Of a DNA stretch of 36,907 nucleotides, positions 3,490 through 36,395 are shown piece by piece. The notes under the pieces were generated by a model, which was given only the letters and a program-made list of their open reading frames with translations, did no database searches and had not been told where the DNA came from. A program made the translations under genes and the position numbers. The first letter of the stretch is position 1, and every line of letters starts with the position of its first letter. The stretch is from Deltaproteobacteria bacterium (lineage in GTDB: Bacteria; Desulfobacterota; DSM-4660; Desulfatiglandales; HGW-15): NCBI GenBank assembly GCA_019307745.1, contig JAFDJA010000034.1, positions 1-36,907 of the forward strand. Reading direction: 5' to 3'.

Positions 3490-4314
3490 ATGATGATTAG
3501 TAAGAAAATGCGAGTTACGGCTTTTATTTTTATGGCAGCGGTTTTTTTAACTGTCGGAGCTACAGGGAGTATATATGCTGCACAATCCATAACAATCACT
3601 TCCGAGGCCACAGAGGTTGACTTTGCGTTGTTGTGGATTGAGAATCCATCCGCAACAACAGGGACAGTGCAGATCGACTTGACAGAAATGACGGATTCAG
3701 GTGGAACAATCCCCATTGCTCTAAGCGCTGTTACCTGGACTGCAACAGCAGGTACTGTAAGCCCGGTTTCCGGTATAAGCACTGTCCTAACCGTAGATTC
3801 AGGAACATCTCAGATAGTGACAGTTACAGCAACAGCAGCCTCTGGTGCTATAGACACACAGGATATCAAGGTCTTTCTTCTTGGTTCGATGTTTGACATG
3901 GCAATCAATGCCAGTACTACCGAGCTTGATTATGATGATCTGGAGACAACCTCCGGGCTTACGGTTCAAGGTATTGATTCCAGGGGATATGATTTGGATC
4001 TGAGCGGTATAGTGTGGTCAGTAACTACAGCAGGTATTGGCGAAATCCTGCCGCCAGCATTAGGCGAGTTTGCTACTTTTAAAGCATCAGGTGTCACTGG
4101 TACAGCTGTTATTGAAGCGAAGGAGCCTACAAGCGGGGTTACCGCGGTAATTAGTATCTTCGTCGCACAGCTGCAACCCCCGAAGGATAAAAATCCTACG
4201 AGCGGATGCTTTATTGGAACTGCTGTTTCATCCGCAGGATCAATACTCTTCGTGATGATATCAGCTGCCGGCGGAGCCTATACGGTGATTCGTAAGAGAA
4301 AAAACCTGAAATAA
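3490..4314 (+). CDS. Shorter paralogue of the 306-2933 surface protein
   Basis: 274 aa. Near-identical signal peptide and C-terminal 40 residues (NPTSGCFIGTAVSSAGSILFVMISAAGGAYTVIRKRKNLK). The body matches only the last two modules of the larger protein. Confidence 0.85.
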   Translation: MMISKKMRVTAFIFMAAVFLTVGATGSIYAAQSITITSEATEVDFALLWIENPSATTGTVQIDLTEMTDSGGTIPIALSAVTWTATAGTVSPVSGISTVLTVDSGTSQIVTVTATAASGAIDTQDIKVFLLGSMFDMAINASTTELDYDDLETTSGLTVQGIDSRGYDLDLSGIVWSVTTAGIGEILPPALGEFATFKASGVTGTAVIEAKEPTSGVTAVISIFVAQLQPPKDKNPTSGCFIGTAVSSAGSILFVMISAAGGAYTVIRKRKNLK

Positions 4315-5489: not shown

Positions 5490-7727
5490 TTACCACAAAA
5501 GCTGATACAGGTTGCTGTAATCATCCGTCCATACACGGATCGAATCGATCTCTTCATATCCAGGAGGTTCAACAGACGCCTCCATAAAAACACGCTGTTG
5601 AAAGATCTCCTTGTCCTTTGACAAAAGGATCCAATCAGTGCCATAGGCATGTCTCTCTTCACCCCATGCGCCTATGTGAACCCGTTCAAGGCCGAATTCA
5701 TTTGCAATCTTCCAGATAAGGGGCTTGAAATTAATATACCTATTCGTGATATGTACAGCTATTATTCCACCTTCACGCATATGACCCATATAGATATTAA
5801 ACGCCTCCCGTGTCAGGAGGTGTATCGGCGGGGCGTCACCGCTGAACGCGTCAAGGGCCAGGATATCAAACTGTTGATTCTCTTCATGCTCCAAAGAGAT
5901 ACGGGCATCCCCCAGAACAACCTCAACCTCTGCCCTGGAATCCGGCACAAAACGGAAAAATCCCTGTTCAGAGGCAGCCACTTCAACCATGGCAGGATTA
6001 ATTTCGTAAATTCGATAGTAATCTCCCTCACGTCCATAGGCGGCCAATGTTCCAGCCCCCAGCCCGACTATACCGACCCTCAACTGAAGATTAGGGGAAT
6101 CATATGCCCTATACCTGGGATGGTTGTTGATTGCCCTGGCTATGCCGCTCTGGGAAGTAAAATAGCTGGTAATTGTTCTGCGAAAATAATCATTACCCAT
6201 TAATTGAAAACCATGCATTGTCTGCCCGTGATACAAATAGCGTGTGTCATACCCAATATCTTCCGGAATCACCTCCACAACCCTCAAAATGCCGTAAAAA
6301 TTTCGATTAATGGCAATTGTCTTCTCTTCAGGATCACCCATGGGAAGATATTGCGTAAGACCGATCTTATCAGCAGTAGAGAGTGTGATATTTCGATAGG
6401 TTTGAGGAAGGCGGTCCACCAGGAGGAAGTATGGTCCAACAGCCAGCAGGACAACGATTGCCGCAGCAGGAACCTTCAACATCCATCCCCAGGCAGGGAG
6501 GTTCATCCATGATCTGCGGTCATGCAGTATAGCTGCAACCACCGCTGCACCACAGATAAAATAACCAATGTACAGCTCCCATAAACCATTAAAAAAGCTT
6601 GGAGCAATAAATCCCACAAATATTCCGCCAAGGGCTCCTCCTATTGATACAGACAAATAAAACTGAGTCAGATACCTGGTGTGCGGCCTTAGCCTTACGA
6701 GTTCCCCGTGACAAAGCATGCAGCAGATAAACAACGCGACATAATATATTGTTATCTGCTGAAGGATGGGTGCAGAGTATCCGGAACCTTCTATCATTGC
6801 AAGCATCTGGAACATGGTACGACCAACCATGTATATGCCTAAAATTCCCAGAACTACAAAAAGGGGTCTATTGTACAGATATCTGCTTGAAAAACACAGG
6901 ATAAACGACAGCAGATATATGCATAGCGGCAGGACCCAGAGGAAGGGTATAACCGCCACCTCTTCCCCAACCTGGTTGGTAGTTGCCAACAGAATTATTG
7001 ACGCTCCGGCAGTCAGGGCCAGCCATAGAATGCGCTGCAACAATGTCGCTCTACCTGGATCAACAGAATCCAGCGGTTTATTGCCTTCGGCAGGGGGACT
7101 GGCAGAAAGCGGGGTATCACTTATACGGCCCGCAGTAAATGCTATAAAACCGCAGCACAACACAAAAATCACATAAATCACAAACCATATTCCGGCCTGG
7201 AGGTTCAGACCAAGATTCGGCTCAACGAAAAATGGATAGCTTAACAGACCCACAAGGGAACCGGTATTGGAGAGGGCAAACAGCTTGTACGGTGACCGAT
7301 TTGGGAAAATCCGGACAAACCAGGCCTGAAGAAGTGTGCTGGTGGTGGCCAGAATAAAGAAAGGCAATCCAACACTGACGGTGAGAAGACCGAGGATACG
7401 AATTATGGGCATATCACTGCCTGTATGCTTCCATCCTGAATCCGGCAGCAGGGGAGATCCCCACAGGAACATCTGAAAAATAAGCAGAATAATCGAAGCT
7501 GACAGGAGAAACAGATGTATCCTGGACTGCCGTCGGGCTGACAATTTGCTCACGATTCCATGTGAATATGCGTAACCGGCGGTGAGCATCACCTGGAAAA
7601 AGAGCATGCAGGTTGACCAGACAGTGGGTGTCCCTCCAAACCACGGAAGGATATACTTGGCCTCTATTAATTGAACCTGGAAAAGCAGCATCGCGCTAAT
7701 AAAAATAGTCAAGGCATAGATTGTCAT
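5490..7727 (-). CDS. Fused MFS-type membrane domain / spermidine synthase-like protein
   Basis: 745 aa. N-terminal multi-TM region (ISAMLLFQVQLIEAKYILPWFGGTPTVWSTCMLFFQ); C-terminal methyltransferase-fold motifs (VGIVGLGAGTLAAYGREGDYYRIYEINP; FDILALDAFSGDAPPIHLLTREAF). Confidence 0.88.
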   Translation of the reverse strand: MTIYALTIFISAMLLFQVQLIEAKYILPWFGGTPTVWSTCMLFFQVMLTAGYAYSHGIVSKLSARRQSRIHLFLLSASIILLIFQMFLWGSPLLPDSGWKHTGSDMPIIRILGLLTVSVGLPFFILATTSTLLQAWFVRIFPNRSPYKLFALSNTGSLVGLLSYPFFVEPNLGLNLQAGIWFVIYVIFVLCCGFIAFTAGRISDTPLSASPPAEGNKPLDSVDPGRATLLQRILWLALTAGASIILLATTNQVGEEVAVIPFLWVLPLCIYLLSFILCFSSRYLYNRPLFVVLGILGIYMVGRTMFQMLAMIEGSGYSAPILQQITIYYVALFICCMLCHGELVRLRPHTRYLTQFYLSVSIGGALGGIFVGFIAPSFFNGLWELYIGYFICGAAVVAAILHDRRSWMNLPAWGWMLKVPAAAIVVLLAVGPYFLLVDRLPQTYRNITLSTADKIGLTQYLPMGDPEEKTIAINRNFYGILRVVEVIPEDIGYDTRYLYHGQTMHGFQLMGNDYFRRTITSYFTSQSGIARAINNHPRYRAYDSPNLQLRVGIVGLGAGTLAAYGREGDYYRIYEINPAMVEVAASEQGFFRFVPDSRAEVEVVLGDARISLEHEENQQFDILALDAFSGDAPPIHLLTREAFNIYMGHMREGGIIAVHITNRYINFKPLIWKIANEFGLERVHIGAWGEERHAYGTDWILLSKDKEIFQQRVFMEASVEPPGYEEIDSIRVWTDDYSNLYQLLW

Positions 7728-18309: not shown

Positions 18310-20946
18310 TTACCCTTGTTTAACAATATCTTTCACTGCAGCAAGTGCACGTCCTAACTCTTCAGGCCTGTTCCCTCCTCCCTGCGCCATATCAGGCCTG
18401 CCTCCACCCTTACCGCCGACTATCCCGGAAAGCTGTCTGACAATATCTCCTGCCTTAAAGCGGTCAGTAAGATCCTTCGTCACAAGACAGATAAGCATAA
18501 CCTTATCGTCATTTTTTGCGCCAAATACAACAATCCCTGAATCAAGCTTATCCCTTATTTTATCTGTATATTCACGCAGATCCTTTGGAGAATCCACATC
18601 CAGTTCGCGGGTAAGGAGTTTTACACCATTTATCTCTTCAATATCAGAAAGAAGGCCGCCTGACTTAGTTGACTGGAGCTTTGCCTTAAGGGTATCAATA
18701 TCTCGGTCCTTCTGTTTATGCTCCTTTAATATATTCTCCACCCTTTCTATCAGCTTATCGGGAGATGTTTTAAGGAATGAGGAAACCTGCCTCAACTTAT
18801 CCTCCTGATTCTGACCATATTCAACAGCAATTCTACCGGTAACCGCTTCAATTCGACGCACATTTGCGCCAACAGCACTCTCATTCACTATCTTAAAAAG
18901 ACCGAGATCACCACTCATTCTTGTATGGGTACCGCCGCACAACTCAGAACTCACATTATCTCCTATACTAACTACACGGACCTTTTCACCATACCTCTCT
19001 TCAAAGATAGCCATGGCCCCTGTCTTAACGGCCTCATCAAGAGACATCTCTTCCGTGCTGACCTGAAAATTCTCCCTGATATGAGTGTTGACAAGCACCT
19101 CCACTTCCTTCAGACTCTCATATCCCACCTGGGTAAAATGAGAAAAGTCAAACCGCAACCTCTCTGGCGATACACGGGAACCTGCCTGCTTCACATGTTC
19201 TCCTAATACCTCTCTCAGGGCCGAATGAAGGAGATGAGTGGCAGTATGATTAAGTGCGGTTGCCTTTCTTGCATCCAAATCTACCTTGGCCTCCACAGCT
19301 TCTCCACAAGAAAGTATGCCGCTTTTCACTATACCCTTATGCACAATAACATCCTGAGCATACTTCACGGCCCCTGTCACGCGGAAGACAATCCCCTCTC
19401 CCAGGAGCAAACCGGTATCTCCCACCTGACCGCCAGCCTCCCCAAAGAACGGCGTCCGATCCAGAACAACCTCTGCCTCATCCCCCTCCCCTATTGAGTC
19501 TATCTCTTTCCCCTGTTTCAGAATATACATCACCTCTGCCATTGAACTCAGCTCTGAATAACCAAGAAACAGGCTGGTTCCTTTGCCTGTTATCTGCCGA
19601 TACAATGCAGGGATCTTCTCTTCACCGCTGCCCTTCCAGCTCTCCTGTGACTGATTTCTCTGCCCTGACATTGCCTTTTTATAACCATCAATATCGACCT
19701 TAAGGCTCTCTTCACGTGCCACATCTTCAACAATGTCCACAGAAAGGCCATAGGTGTCATAGAGCTTGAATGCCAGCTCTCCAGAGATCGAATCAATCCG
19801 CTTTTCTTTCAGTTCGCCTATCTCGTCCTTTAATATCCTCAGTCCATAAAAAAGTGTGTCAGCGAATCTCTTCTCCTCATTAGTAATCACTCCTTTAACA
19901 GAGGCCTTCGCGGTTACAAGCCCGCTGTAGTCCGGCCCCATTATCTCTATGACCTTATCAGTGATATGATGAAAAAACTGGTCTTTGAGCTCAAATATCT
20001 GGCCAAACCTTATTGCCCTTCTTATGATCCGCCGGAGTACATATCCCCGGCCCTCATTGGAAGGCATGACCCCATCACTGATCAAAAAGGCGGCCGCACG
20101 GGCATGATCAGAAATAACGCGAAACGAGAGGTCCTTTTTTCTGTCAACACCATAGGCAACACCGCCGATATCCTCCATCCTGCTTATAATTGCTCTGAAA
20201 AGATCTGTATCATAATTGGAATTCACACCCTGTATAACTGCCGCAATCCTCTCAAGACCCATGCCAGTGTCAATGCTTGGATTAGGCAGCGGAGTCAGCC
20301 TCCCTGAAGGGTCCCGGTCAAATTGTGTAAACACCAGATTCCAGACCTCAAGGTACCTGTCACATTCGCATTCCAATCCGCAATCGGGATTTTCGCATGC
20401 CATTTCCTCGCCCTGATCAATGTGTATTTCAGAGCATGGTCCGCATGGTCCTGTATCTCCCATGGCCCAAAAATTATCTTTCTCACCCAGTCGGACAATC
20501 CTTTCACAGGGAACACCTGTCTCTTTTTCCCAGATATCAAATGCCTCATCGTCATCATTGTACACAGAGATCCAAAGTCTGTCCTTAGGAAGATTAAAAC
20601 CCTCGATAAGCAGCTCCCATGCCCAGGCAATGGTCTCCCTCTTAAAATAGTCCCCGAAGGAGAAGTTGCCAAGCATTTCAAAAAAGGTGTGATGCCTAGA
20701 TGTATAGCCCACATTCTCCAGATCATTGTGCTTTCCCCCTGCCCGAACACATTTCTGAGATGTGGCAGCCCTTGTATATGACCTCTTCTCTTCACCCTGA
20801 AACAGGGCCTTGAACTGAACCATGCCCGCGTTTGTAAAAAGCAGGGTGGGATCATCCCTGGGAACAAGAGATGAGCTTGCTATGATCTCATGATTCCGGT
20901 CTTTAAAGTAGTCAAGATATCTTTGTCGTATTTCTCTGAAATCCAT
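18310..20946 (-). CDS. alaS: Alanyl-tRNA synthetase
   Basis: 878 aa. 'LFTNAGMVQFKALFQGEEKRSYTRAATSQKCVRAGGKHNDLENVGYTSRHHTFFEMLGNFSFGDYFK', 'NHTATHLLHSALREVLGEHVKQAGS', 'CGGTHTRMSGD', 'GGKGGGRPDMAQGGG'. Confidence 0.98.
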   Translation of the reverse strand: MDFREIRQRYLDYFKDRNHEIIASSSLVPRDDPTLLFTNAGMVQFKALFQGEEKRSYTRAATSQKCVRAGGKHNDLENVGYTSRHHTFFEMLGNFSFGDYFKRETIAWAWELLIEGFNLPKDRLWISVYNDDDEAFDIWEKETGVPCERIVRLGEKDNFWAMGDTGPCGPCSEIHIDQGEEMACENPDCGLECECDRYLEVWNLVFTQFDRDPSGRLTPLPNPSIDTGMGLERIAAVIQGVNSNYDTDLFRAIISRMEDIGGVAYGVDRKKDLSFRVISDHARAAAFLISDGVMPSNEGRGYVLRRIIRRAIRFGQIFELKDQFFHHITDKVIEIMGPDYSGLVTAKASVKGVITNEEKRFADTLFYGLRILKDEIGELKEKRIDSISGELAFKLYDTYGLSVDIVEDVAREESLKVDIDGYKKAMSGQRNQSQESWKGSGEEKIPALYRQITGKGTSLFLGYSELSSMAEVMYILKQGKEIDSIGEGDEAEVVLDRTPFFGEAGGQVGDTGLLLGEGIVFRVTGAVKYAQDVIVHKGIVKSGILSCGEAVEAKVDLDARKATALNHTATHLLHSALREVLGEHVKQAGSRVSPERLRFDFSHFTQVGYESLKEVEVLVNTHIRENFQVSTEEMSLDEAVKTGAMAIFEERYGEKVRVVSIGDNVSSELCGGTHTRMSGDLGLFKIVNESAVGANVRRIEAVTGRIAVEYGQNQEDKLRQVSSFLKTSPDKLIERVENILKEHKQKDRDIDTLKAKLQSTKSGGLLSDIEEINGVKLLTRELDVDSPKDLREYTDKIRDKLDSGIVVFGAKNDDKVMLICLVTKDLTDRFKAGDIVRQLSGIVGGKGGGRPDMAQGGGNRPEELGRALAAVKDIVKQG

Positions 20947-21079: not shown

Positions 21080-22139
21080 CTAATCCTCAACACCATCTTC
21101 CGCCTGCTTCCCGCCAACATTATCCAACCCTATCTTCTCACGAACAAGATTGGCAATGCTGGTCAGGATATCTTTATTCTCAGCAAGAAACTTTTTTACA
21201 TTCTCCCTGCCCTGCCCTATCCTTTCACCATTAAACGAATACCATGCCCCGCTCTTTTCAACGATATCAAGCTCCACACCAAGATCAAGGATATCTCCTT
21301 CTTTTGATATACCATGTCCATATATGATATCAAACTCGGCATTCTTGAAGGGAGGAGCAACCTTGTTCTTTACCACCTTAACTCTGGTCCTGTTTCCAAC
21401 AGCATCAACCCCATCCTTGATAGCTCCAATACGCCGTATATCCAGCCTCTGGGTGGCATAAAACTTTAATGCGTTCCCTCCGGTAGTTGTTTCTGGATTT
21501 CCAAACATGACACCAATCTTCATCCTGATCTGATTGATAAAGATCACACATGTCTTTGATTTGCTGATCGTTGCAGTAAGCTTCCTGAGCGCCTGGGACA
21601 TGAGGCGCGCCTGAAGGCCCATATGGGAATCCCGCCTGAAGGCCCATATGGGAATCCCCCATGTCACCTTCTATTTCAGCCTTTGGGACCAGGGCAGCGA
21701 CCGAATCAATAATCAACAGATCAATTGCGCCGCTCCTTACCAGAATTTCAGTAATATCAAGCGCCTGTTCTCCTGTATCAGGCTGGGATACGAGGAGGCT
21801 GTCCACGTCAATACCCAGATTTCTTGCATATGCGACATCAAGGGCATGTTCCGCGTCAACAAAACCCACAACCCCGCCCGCTGCCTGTGCCTCCGCTGCT
21901 ATATGGAGGGCAAGCGTGGTCTTTCCTGAGGATTCAGGCCCATATATCTCCACTACCCTCCCCCTGGGCACACCTCCAACACCAAGGGCCAGATCAAGGG
22001 AAAGCGCCCCTGTTGAAATGGCAGGCACGTCAATAGCCTTTGAGTCACCCAGTTTCATAATAGAGCCTCTGCCAAACTGCTTTTCTATCTGTGAAATAGC
22101 CTGATCTACCACCTTATCCCTGTTTGCCTGATCTGCCAT
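21080..22139 (-). pseudogene. recA: RecA recombinase, frame-disrupted by a 25-bp tandem duplication
   Basis: N-terminal part in the 21405..22139 ORF ([32 protein letters not shown]...[13 protein letters not shown]...[19 protein letters not shown]). C-terminal part in the 21080..21667 ORF ([66 protein letters not shown]). Removing one 25-nt copy restores [21 protein letters not shown]. Confidence 0.95.
21608..21658. repeat. Perfect 25-bp tandem duplication (period 25, two copies) in recA
   Basis: gcctgaaggcccatatgggaatccc at 21609-21633 and 21634-21658, head to tail and identical. Confidence 0.97.
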
Positions 22140-22305: not shown

Positions 22306-22881
22306 CTACTTGCTTCCTGTCAGATGCCATGAATCGAGCCGGGTATATCTGGCCCCCGCAGGATTCAAGTCACTCCTGAAAAATACAAGTTCATCAAACA
22401 TTTTGACAGGGCTCTTAAAATCCCTGTGTTTGTCAAGTAGCTCAATCAATGAAGAATCTGGTTTAAATGATTTCTTAAACCTTCCAAGAGTGAGGTGCGG
22501 GTTGAATTTTCGTTTCTCCTGTTTAATACCAAAGGGCTGCAGCTTCTGTTGGAGCATATCCCTGAAGGAGGCAATTCGCCCTATATCGCCATTGATTCCC
22601 AGCCACAATACGCGGGGCCTTCGCGTATCAGGAAACACCCCCATCCCCTGTAATTCAATATAAAAGGGCCTATATCCGGAACAAATGTTTTCGATTGATG
22701 TCCTTATATCAGAAAAGTCATCTTCCCTGATATTGCCCATAAAAAGAACTGTGAGGTGAATGTTGTCCACATCGATCCATCTCACATCCATCCGTGTCCT
22801 TTTTGCCACGTCAGATACCCGTGCCACAGTATCTTTTATCTCCCCTGGCAGTTCAAATGCAAGAAACGAACGGATCTCCAT
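22306..22881 (-). CDS. thpR: RNA 2',3'-cyclic phosphodiesterase (LigT/ThpR family)
   Basis: Two HxT motifs: 'NIHLTVLFMG' and 'NPHLTLGRFK'; start 'MEIRSFLAFELP'. Confidence 0.92.
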   Translation of the reverse strand: MEIRSFLAFELPGEIKDTVARVSDVAKRTRMDVRWIDVDNIHLTVLFMGNIREDDFSDIRTSIENICSGYRPFYIELQGMGVFPDTRRPRVLWLGINGDIGRIASFRDMLQQKLQPFGIKQEKRKFNPHLTLGRFKKSFKPDSSLIELLDKHRDFKSPVKMFDELVFFRSDLNPAGARYTRLDSWHLTGSK

Positions 22882-34757: not shown

Positions 34758-36395
34758 CTACTCCTTGGGCAGAACCAGTGAGTCCATAATAGGTGTCATC
34801 TCCTTACCCTGGAAAGCCGGATAATCAGGAGCATACCTACGAATCTTAAACACCGCATTATACTGGTGACCACGCACATCAAGAGGAATTCCATCTCCCT
34901 CTCTGAGCTGGCCGTCGCGTGCAACAGGATTTCGGTATTCCCAGACAATATTCCCATCTTTTTCTACTTCCAGGAAATGGCCTACAGTTCCAGCGCAGAC
35001 CAGGGTATTTCCATTGGGAAGACGAGATGCACCAGAGATCTCTGTAGAGTACATATCCTCTTTAGGTGTAGTTGTATAGATCCAGGTCTGATCCTTGGGT
35101 CCCCAGATCTGGCCAGGTTTATATTCAGGGAAAAATCCCTCTTCATCCTGGAGTACATCTATCTCATCCACAGAAGAATATCCCCTCCTGCTACCGTTAT
35201 TATAAACGAGAAAATTCCCTGCACCAGGACAGTCATCCTCTATCCACTGGGAGTCATGCTGTAAATAAAGCCTCTGATCATCTGCAGATCCACCACCATA
35301 TACAGCAGGATTGCCCCACCTGTAAAGAAGGTCTCCACCCTTTCCGTATTTTCCGCCAGTACTGCCCTTGGCCTCCTCAGTGGTAGTTGTATGATCAATT
35401 ATCCAGAACTCGTTCTGTCCACGGGCATTAAGACATATCTGATCAAATTTCGGGTTATAATCAATTGAGTTGGCATGATTCCAAAAGGCAGGAGTACGCC
35501 TTCCGCCAGCGTTACAGTCTACCCTGCCTGGATTATCTTTAATAGAACCATAATTGACTACATTTTTATTCCTATCCTGAATAAGATGGTCCCACACTTG
35601 CCATTCCCAGACTATTTCAAATCCCTGTGATCCGAATCTCTCTATCTCAATAATTGATTCTGGGAAGAGTGTATCTGATCTCATCATCCCTGCATCAAAA
35701 CCCGCGGCAATACACTCCGCCTTAGTTTTTAGTTGAACTACCATTACAAGCAGATTTCCATTTGGCATAGGCTCAATATCATGATGTGAGAGCTTGGTAT
35801 CATCTGAATACCACATGGACCAGACCATATTTCCATCCCAGTCATACTCTTCCATCCTGCCCCCCTCACCACCACCAATAAATGACTGATTCTTGGTAAA
35901 GCAGCAACGCAGCAGGTTTCCGTTCTCCAGGAGATATACTGACTGACCAGGCTCATATTCACTGGTCCACTCCTTATAAACCTGACCCGACATACTCATT
36001 AAATATGTCTTCTCATAATGCTTCGGGGCAAACAAGGTATAACCATTATATACTTTATCCTTATCATACTTTATAAGTCCCAGCTGCTGGAAAACCGGGC
36101 CGGTTGGGATAACCCTGTTATTACGACCTTTGCCGCCGCCTCTGTTTCTATTACCGCCTTTGCCGCCGCCTCTGTTTCTATTATCACCTTTGCCGCCGCC
36201 TCTGTTTCCATTATCACCTTTGCCGCCGCCTTCTCGGTTTCTGCTGTCAGCGATCCTATCGTCCCTTTCACTGTCCTTATCAGACTGTTGAGATATGGTT
36301 TGATCCGGCGAGGTGAAAACACACGAAACACAGACCATCAATAAAAGACAGATAATTGCAACAGACCAGTTTTGAAAACCATCTTTGACCTTCAT
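34758..36395 (-). CDS. Aryl-sulfate sulfotransferase-like (ASST family) lipoprotein
   Basis: 545 aa: 'GYTLFAPKHYEKTYLMSMSGQVYKEW', 'EYDWDGNMVWSMWYSDDTKLSHHDIEPMPNGNLLVMV', 'WNHANSIDYNPKFDQICLNARGQNEFWIIDHTTTTEEAKG', 'WRWGNP'-like 'YRWGNPAVYG'. N-terminal hydrophobic segment ending in Cys. Confidence 0.85.
   Translation of the reverse strand: MKVKDGFQNWSVAIICLLLMVCVSCVFTSPDQTISQQSDKDSERDDRIADSRNREGGGKGDNGNRGGGKGDNRNRGGGKGGNRNRGGGKGRNNRVIPTGPVFQQLGLIKYDKDKVYNGYTLFAPKHYEKTYLMSMSGQVYKEWTSEYEPGQSVYLLENGNLLRCCFTKNQSFIGGGEGGRMEEYDWDGNMVWSMWYSDDTKLSHHDIEPMPNGNLLVMVVQLKTKAECIAAGFDAGMMRSDTLFPESIIEIERFGSQGFEIVWEWQVWDHLIQDRNKNVVNYGSIKDNPGRVDCNAGGRRTPAFWNHANSIDYNPKFDQICLNARGQNEFWIIDHTTTTEEAKGSTGGKYGKGGDLLYRWGNPAVYGGGSADDQRLYLQHDSQWIEDDCPGAGNFLVYNNGSRRGYSSVDEIDVLQDEEGFFPEYKPGQIWGPKDQTWIYTTTPKEDMYSTEISGASRLPNGNTLVCAGTVGHFLEVEKDGNIVWEYRNPVARDGQLREGDGIPLDVRGHQYNAVFKIRRYAPDYPAFQGKEMTPIMDSLVLPKE
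36127..36232 (-). repeat. 30-bp in-frame tandem repeat encoding GGGKGxNxNR decapeptides
   Basis: Units starting at 36127, 36157, 36187 and 36217: cctttgccgccgcctctgtttctattaycr. Protein: GGGKGDNGNR GGGKGDNRNR GGGKGGNRNR GGGKGRNN. Confidence 0.92.

Follow-up and report, generated by a model that had tools for sequence, protein, structure and literature searches.

An exact 25-bp tandem duplication that splits recA in a draft Desulfobacterota genome is probably an assembly error

The window analyzed here is an entire contig of 36,907 nucleotides (contig 78; GenBank accession no. JAFDJA010000034.1) from the draft genome of an uncultured Deltaproteobacteria bacterium (assembly GCA_019307745.1), which consists of 334 contigs totaling 3.56 Mb and has an estimated completeness of 92% and contamination of 5.5%. 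On the reverse strand, recA is present as two open reading frames (ORFs): an N-terminal ORF of 244 amino acids (positions 21405 to 22139), matching positions 2 to 164 of the TIGR02012 profile, and a C-terminal ORF of 195 amino acids in a different frame (positions 21080 to 21667), matching RecA profile positions 157 to 321. Either half by itself falls under the full-length cutoff of TIGR02012; both match this equivalog, and the gene order is recA-alaS with alaS adjacent, which identifies the two pieces as the recA orthologue. Among the named sequence neighbors of recA, the top of the list is mostly deltaproteobacterial (Geomonas and Syntrophorhabdaceae). The surrounding genes are in good order: alaS, downstream on the same strand (positions 18310 to 20946), is intact, and its closest matches come from the taxonomic family to which the upstream side also points; the RNA 2',3'-cyclic phosphodiesterase gene thpR, upstream and also on the reverse strand (positions 22306 to 22881), is intact; and a nearby gene with a cinA C-terminal domain appears intact.

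The two recA pieces meet at an exact tandem duplication at positions 21608 to 21658, where a 25-mer stands twice, head to tail, on the reverse strand. Tandem Repeats Finder (TRF) reported 2.0 copies with a 100% match, and a scan for exact repeats gave a period of 25 with 26 matching bases, in agreement with a preliminary description of this DNA that had proposed such a duplication; the junction homology is 1 bp. The duplicated codons encode GDSHMGLQA, which we take, by E. coli RecA numbering, to be the L1 DNA-binding loop. The N-terminal ORF carries 169 native residues, including Walker A and B and reaching the L1 loop, followed by an out-of-frame tail; the frame break and the shift of the C-terminal part to another frame were thus described correctly, but the break had been placed at about codon 160, whereas the protein is native to residue 169. 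No further copies of the 25-mer with up to 3 mismatches were found in the window (shuffled sequences give an expectation of 0), and when the whole assembly was searched for the core 17-mer of the unit, it was present only in the two copies, so we rejected the idea that the unit was copied from another locus. A chance origin of the recA repeat itself is excluded, as the expectation for exact repeats with a period of 20 to 60 is about 1e-6 across the 1.16 Mb scanned.

Apart from the duplication, the gene is in excellent condition. At the positions that are invariant in 110 RecA proteins, 46 in the N-terminal half and 35 in the C-terminal half, there were 0 departures, which bears out the earlier impression that the rest of RecA shows no decay and leads us to reject a decayed pseudogene, which should depart at some of these 81 sites. 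Against 30 nearer relatives, the N-terminal half shows 2 departures and the C-terminal half 0, and intact relatives span the same range. As both halves are conserved and lexA was found in the assembly, recA is not decayed, and the lesion must therefore be either very young or absent from the cell. A search for recA in this 92% complete assembly returned the two pieces only, with no second intact copy. Rescue by frameshifting during translation is, in our judgment, unlikely; it could draw on the run of five G residues before the unit and would add residues in the L1 loop. Nearly all of the 98 other genomes searched have an uninterrupted recA match, the partial matches are fragments lying mostly at contig ends, as judged from their coordinates, and none has two adjacent pieces like those seen here. 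Among 17 genomes of the family, a set that includes no genome of the same genus, the motif-pair pattern at recA was found here only. One relative (G084) has two recA genes, and the start of one of them is spanned by an exact tandem duplication of 89 bp (L032, positions 1925 to 2102).

We also scanned about 1.16 Mb of unmasked sequence from the 3.56-Mb assembly for tandem repeats. Exact two-copy duplications of at least 20 bp were found four times, all with units of 22 to 26 bp. Besides the recA duplication, these are a 26-bp duplication that divides an arylsulfotransferase gene between two frames, with 275 and 166 open codons (L164, positions 1992 to 2043), a 26-bp frame-shifting duplication in an FGE-sulfatase protein encoded at a contig end, within its acidic repeat (L251, positions 6715 to 6767), and a 22-bp duplication in a repeat-rich stretch with no clear gene (L208, positions 4253 to 4296). 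All three that lie in reading frames (recA, arylsulfotransferase, and FGE-sulfatase protein) shift the frame, whereas all nine exact arrays of 12 to 18 bp inside ORFs keep it (Fisher P = 0.0045, with the grouping made post hoc). A rule that every short repeat keeps the frame fails at 9 to 11 bp, as with an 11-bp repeat in L187, and the comparison was therefore confined to arrays of 12 to 18 bp. Junction homology is 0 to 1 bp at all four duplications, unlike that of slippage at short repeats. In raw numbers, it is not clear that tandem duplications are more frequent here than in control DNA: exact repeats of 20 to 30 bp number 4 in 1.16 Mb here and 2 in about 0.61 Mb of control loci, or about 3.4 versus 3.3 per Mb, and the control DNA (about 610 kb) has comparable exact two-copy repeats, for example, one of 26 bp in L107. 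Because the raw density resembles that of the control, our argument uses only the breaking of frames and the clustering of sizes, and the events are few. The assembly also contains runs of N of 7 and 21 bp, as well as contig ends that overlap by exactly 114 bp, which are signs of a scaffolded short-read de Bruijn assembly.

We therefore favor, with a probability of roughly 0.6, the explanation that the 25-bp duplication in recA is an assembly error. Two short-read contigs with a true overlap of about 25 bp within recA would have been joined at scaffolding or gap closing with the overlap left uncollapsed, so that the shared bases were written twice; we infer this mode of joining, under which the organism's own recA would be intact and ordinary. 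The preliminary description had listed an artifact as one of three options, next to a very recent lesion and a reversible switch, and the artifact gains support because frame-breaking duplications of similar length occur elsewhere in the same assembly, together with the signs of scaffolding. Exact adjacent duplications (22, 25, 26, and 26 bp) recur in this assembly without selection for frame, and scaffolding or gap estimation was used, as the N runs and the 114-bp overlaps attest; the undecayed RecA, the presence of lexA, and the lack of a two-piece recA in any relative searched also support an error. Joining of contigs despite their overlap, with duplicate sequence left behind, is a recurrent error of metagenome assembly with IDBA-UD and CLC (Chen et al. 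2020, PMC7111523). The likeness lies in duplicate sequence at the join of truly overlapping contigs and in broken protein-coding genes in drafts; the difference, which counts against an artifact, is that the published form normally has Ns between the copies, whereas the recA copies abut directly. A literature search for a gap-closer fault matching the recA case found nothing specific. Also against an artifact, k appears to be near 115, judging from the 114-bp overlaps, so that real reads could account for the 51-bp structure; the size cluster comprises only four events; and the duplication in L251 sits in a natural repeat region.

The main rival, which we hold to be possible but distinctly the less probable, is that a real and very recent 25-bp tandem duplication inactivated recA in the sampled strain or population, producing a null allele that could revert when one copy is deleted by misalignment of the 25-bp repeat. 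The exactness of the copies, a recA with no other lesion, the failure to find a second recA in the assembly, and the consistent gene context on both sides of recA all agree with a real mutation, but a recA null should be strongly disfavored in a free-living cell with lexA and would need to be the consensus allele, lesions of the same kind affect two further, unrelated genes of this assembly, and the junction homology is only 1 bp. Loss of recA does occur in nature, as in the Spiroplasma strain sMel, where the gene is truncated (PMC8208695); there too a broken recA is otherwise recognizable and a relative has an intact copy, but sMel is a symbiont with a truncated gene, whereas here a 25-bp duplication stands in a draft genome whose relatives keep recA. 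It is very unlikely that the duplication is a reversible on/off switch in which slippage gains or loses the 25-bp copy to control RecA production, and just as hard to credit that a recA-null allele arises and reverts often in a free-living population, switching recombination and SOS induction among cells. A perfect 25-bp tandem repeat could contract by misalignment, and each copy carries a 10-bp palindrome, CCCATATGGG, which had been suggested to promote slippage. The forward step from one copy to two, however, has 1 bp of homology, leaving little basis for slippage in that direction, and the palindrome, largely a consequence of the Ser-His-Met-Gly codons, occurs without duplication in the recA genes of 4 of 43 relatives and makes no notable hairpin; the unit folds no better than its shuffles (z = 0.10), and we accordingly rejected hairpin-driven slippage.

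Contingency loci undergo phase variation by slippage in tandem repeats. The recA duplication resembles them in that a change of copy number shifts the frame, but it differs in having a 25-bp unit in just two copies with almost no homology for the forward step, in lying in a housekeeping gene, and in being single copy in relatives. Neither copy-number variation (98 relatives and 17 family genomes, none of the same genus) nor a structure that slips both ways, with short units in many copies, was found, and a search of the literature for phase-variable recA found none. Least probable of all, in our estimation, is a chimeric contig in which DNA from two organisms meets at a conserved stretch within recA. 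Few parts of recA are as conserved as the duplication site, and identities to family-mates are about 78 to 83% for the N-terminal half and 81 to 84% for the C-terminal half, against 84 to 86% and 83 to 85%, respectively, for the best members of another family, but the identities of the two halves correlate across 110 relatives (rho = 0.66), and alaS downstream and a UvrD-like helicase gene upstream both match the assembly's own taxonomic family best, which makes it unlikely that different organisms were joined.

If the duplication is an assembly error, as we favor, a single overlap left uncollapsed makes it look as if a core repair gene were lost, and claims of gene absence from draft metagenome genomes require read checks; if it is real, the consensus is recA null, which would be unusual for a lineage in which the gene is otherwise retained.

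The number of arylsulfotransferase genes is a more unusual observation than the recA duplication. The 3.56-Mb draft has 57 arylsulfotransferase (PF05935) matches, whereas 16 genomes from its taxonomic family have 0 to 10; the expansion appears to be lineage specific. One copy lies in the window on the reverse strand (positions 34758 to 36395), with an in-frame 30-bp repeat of 3.8 copies (positions 36119 to 36231) in a Gly/Asn/Arg/Lys-rich stretch near the N terminus. At the other end of the window are two predicted secreted proteins (positions 306 to 2933 and 3490 to 4314), the first of which gave no Pfam match; their ends are near-identical (GCFIGTAVSS...RKRKNLK).
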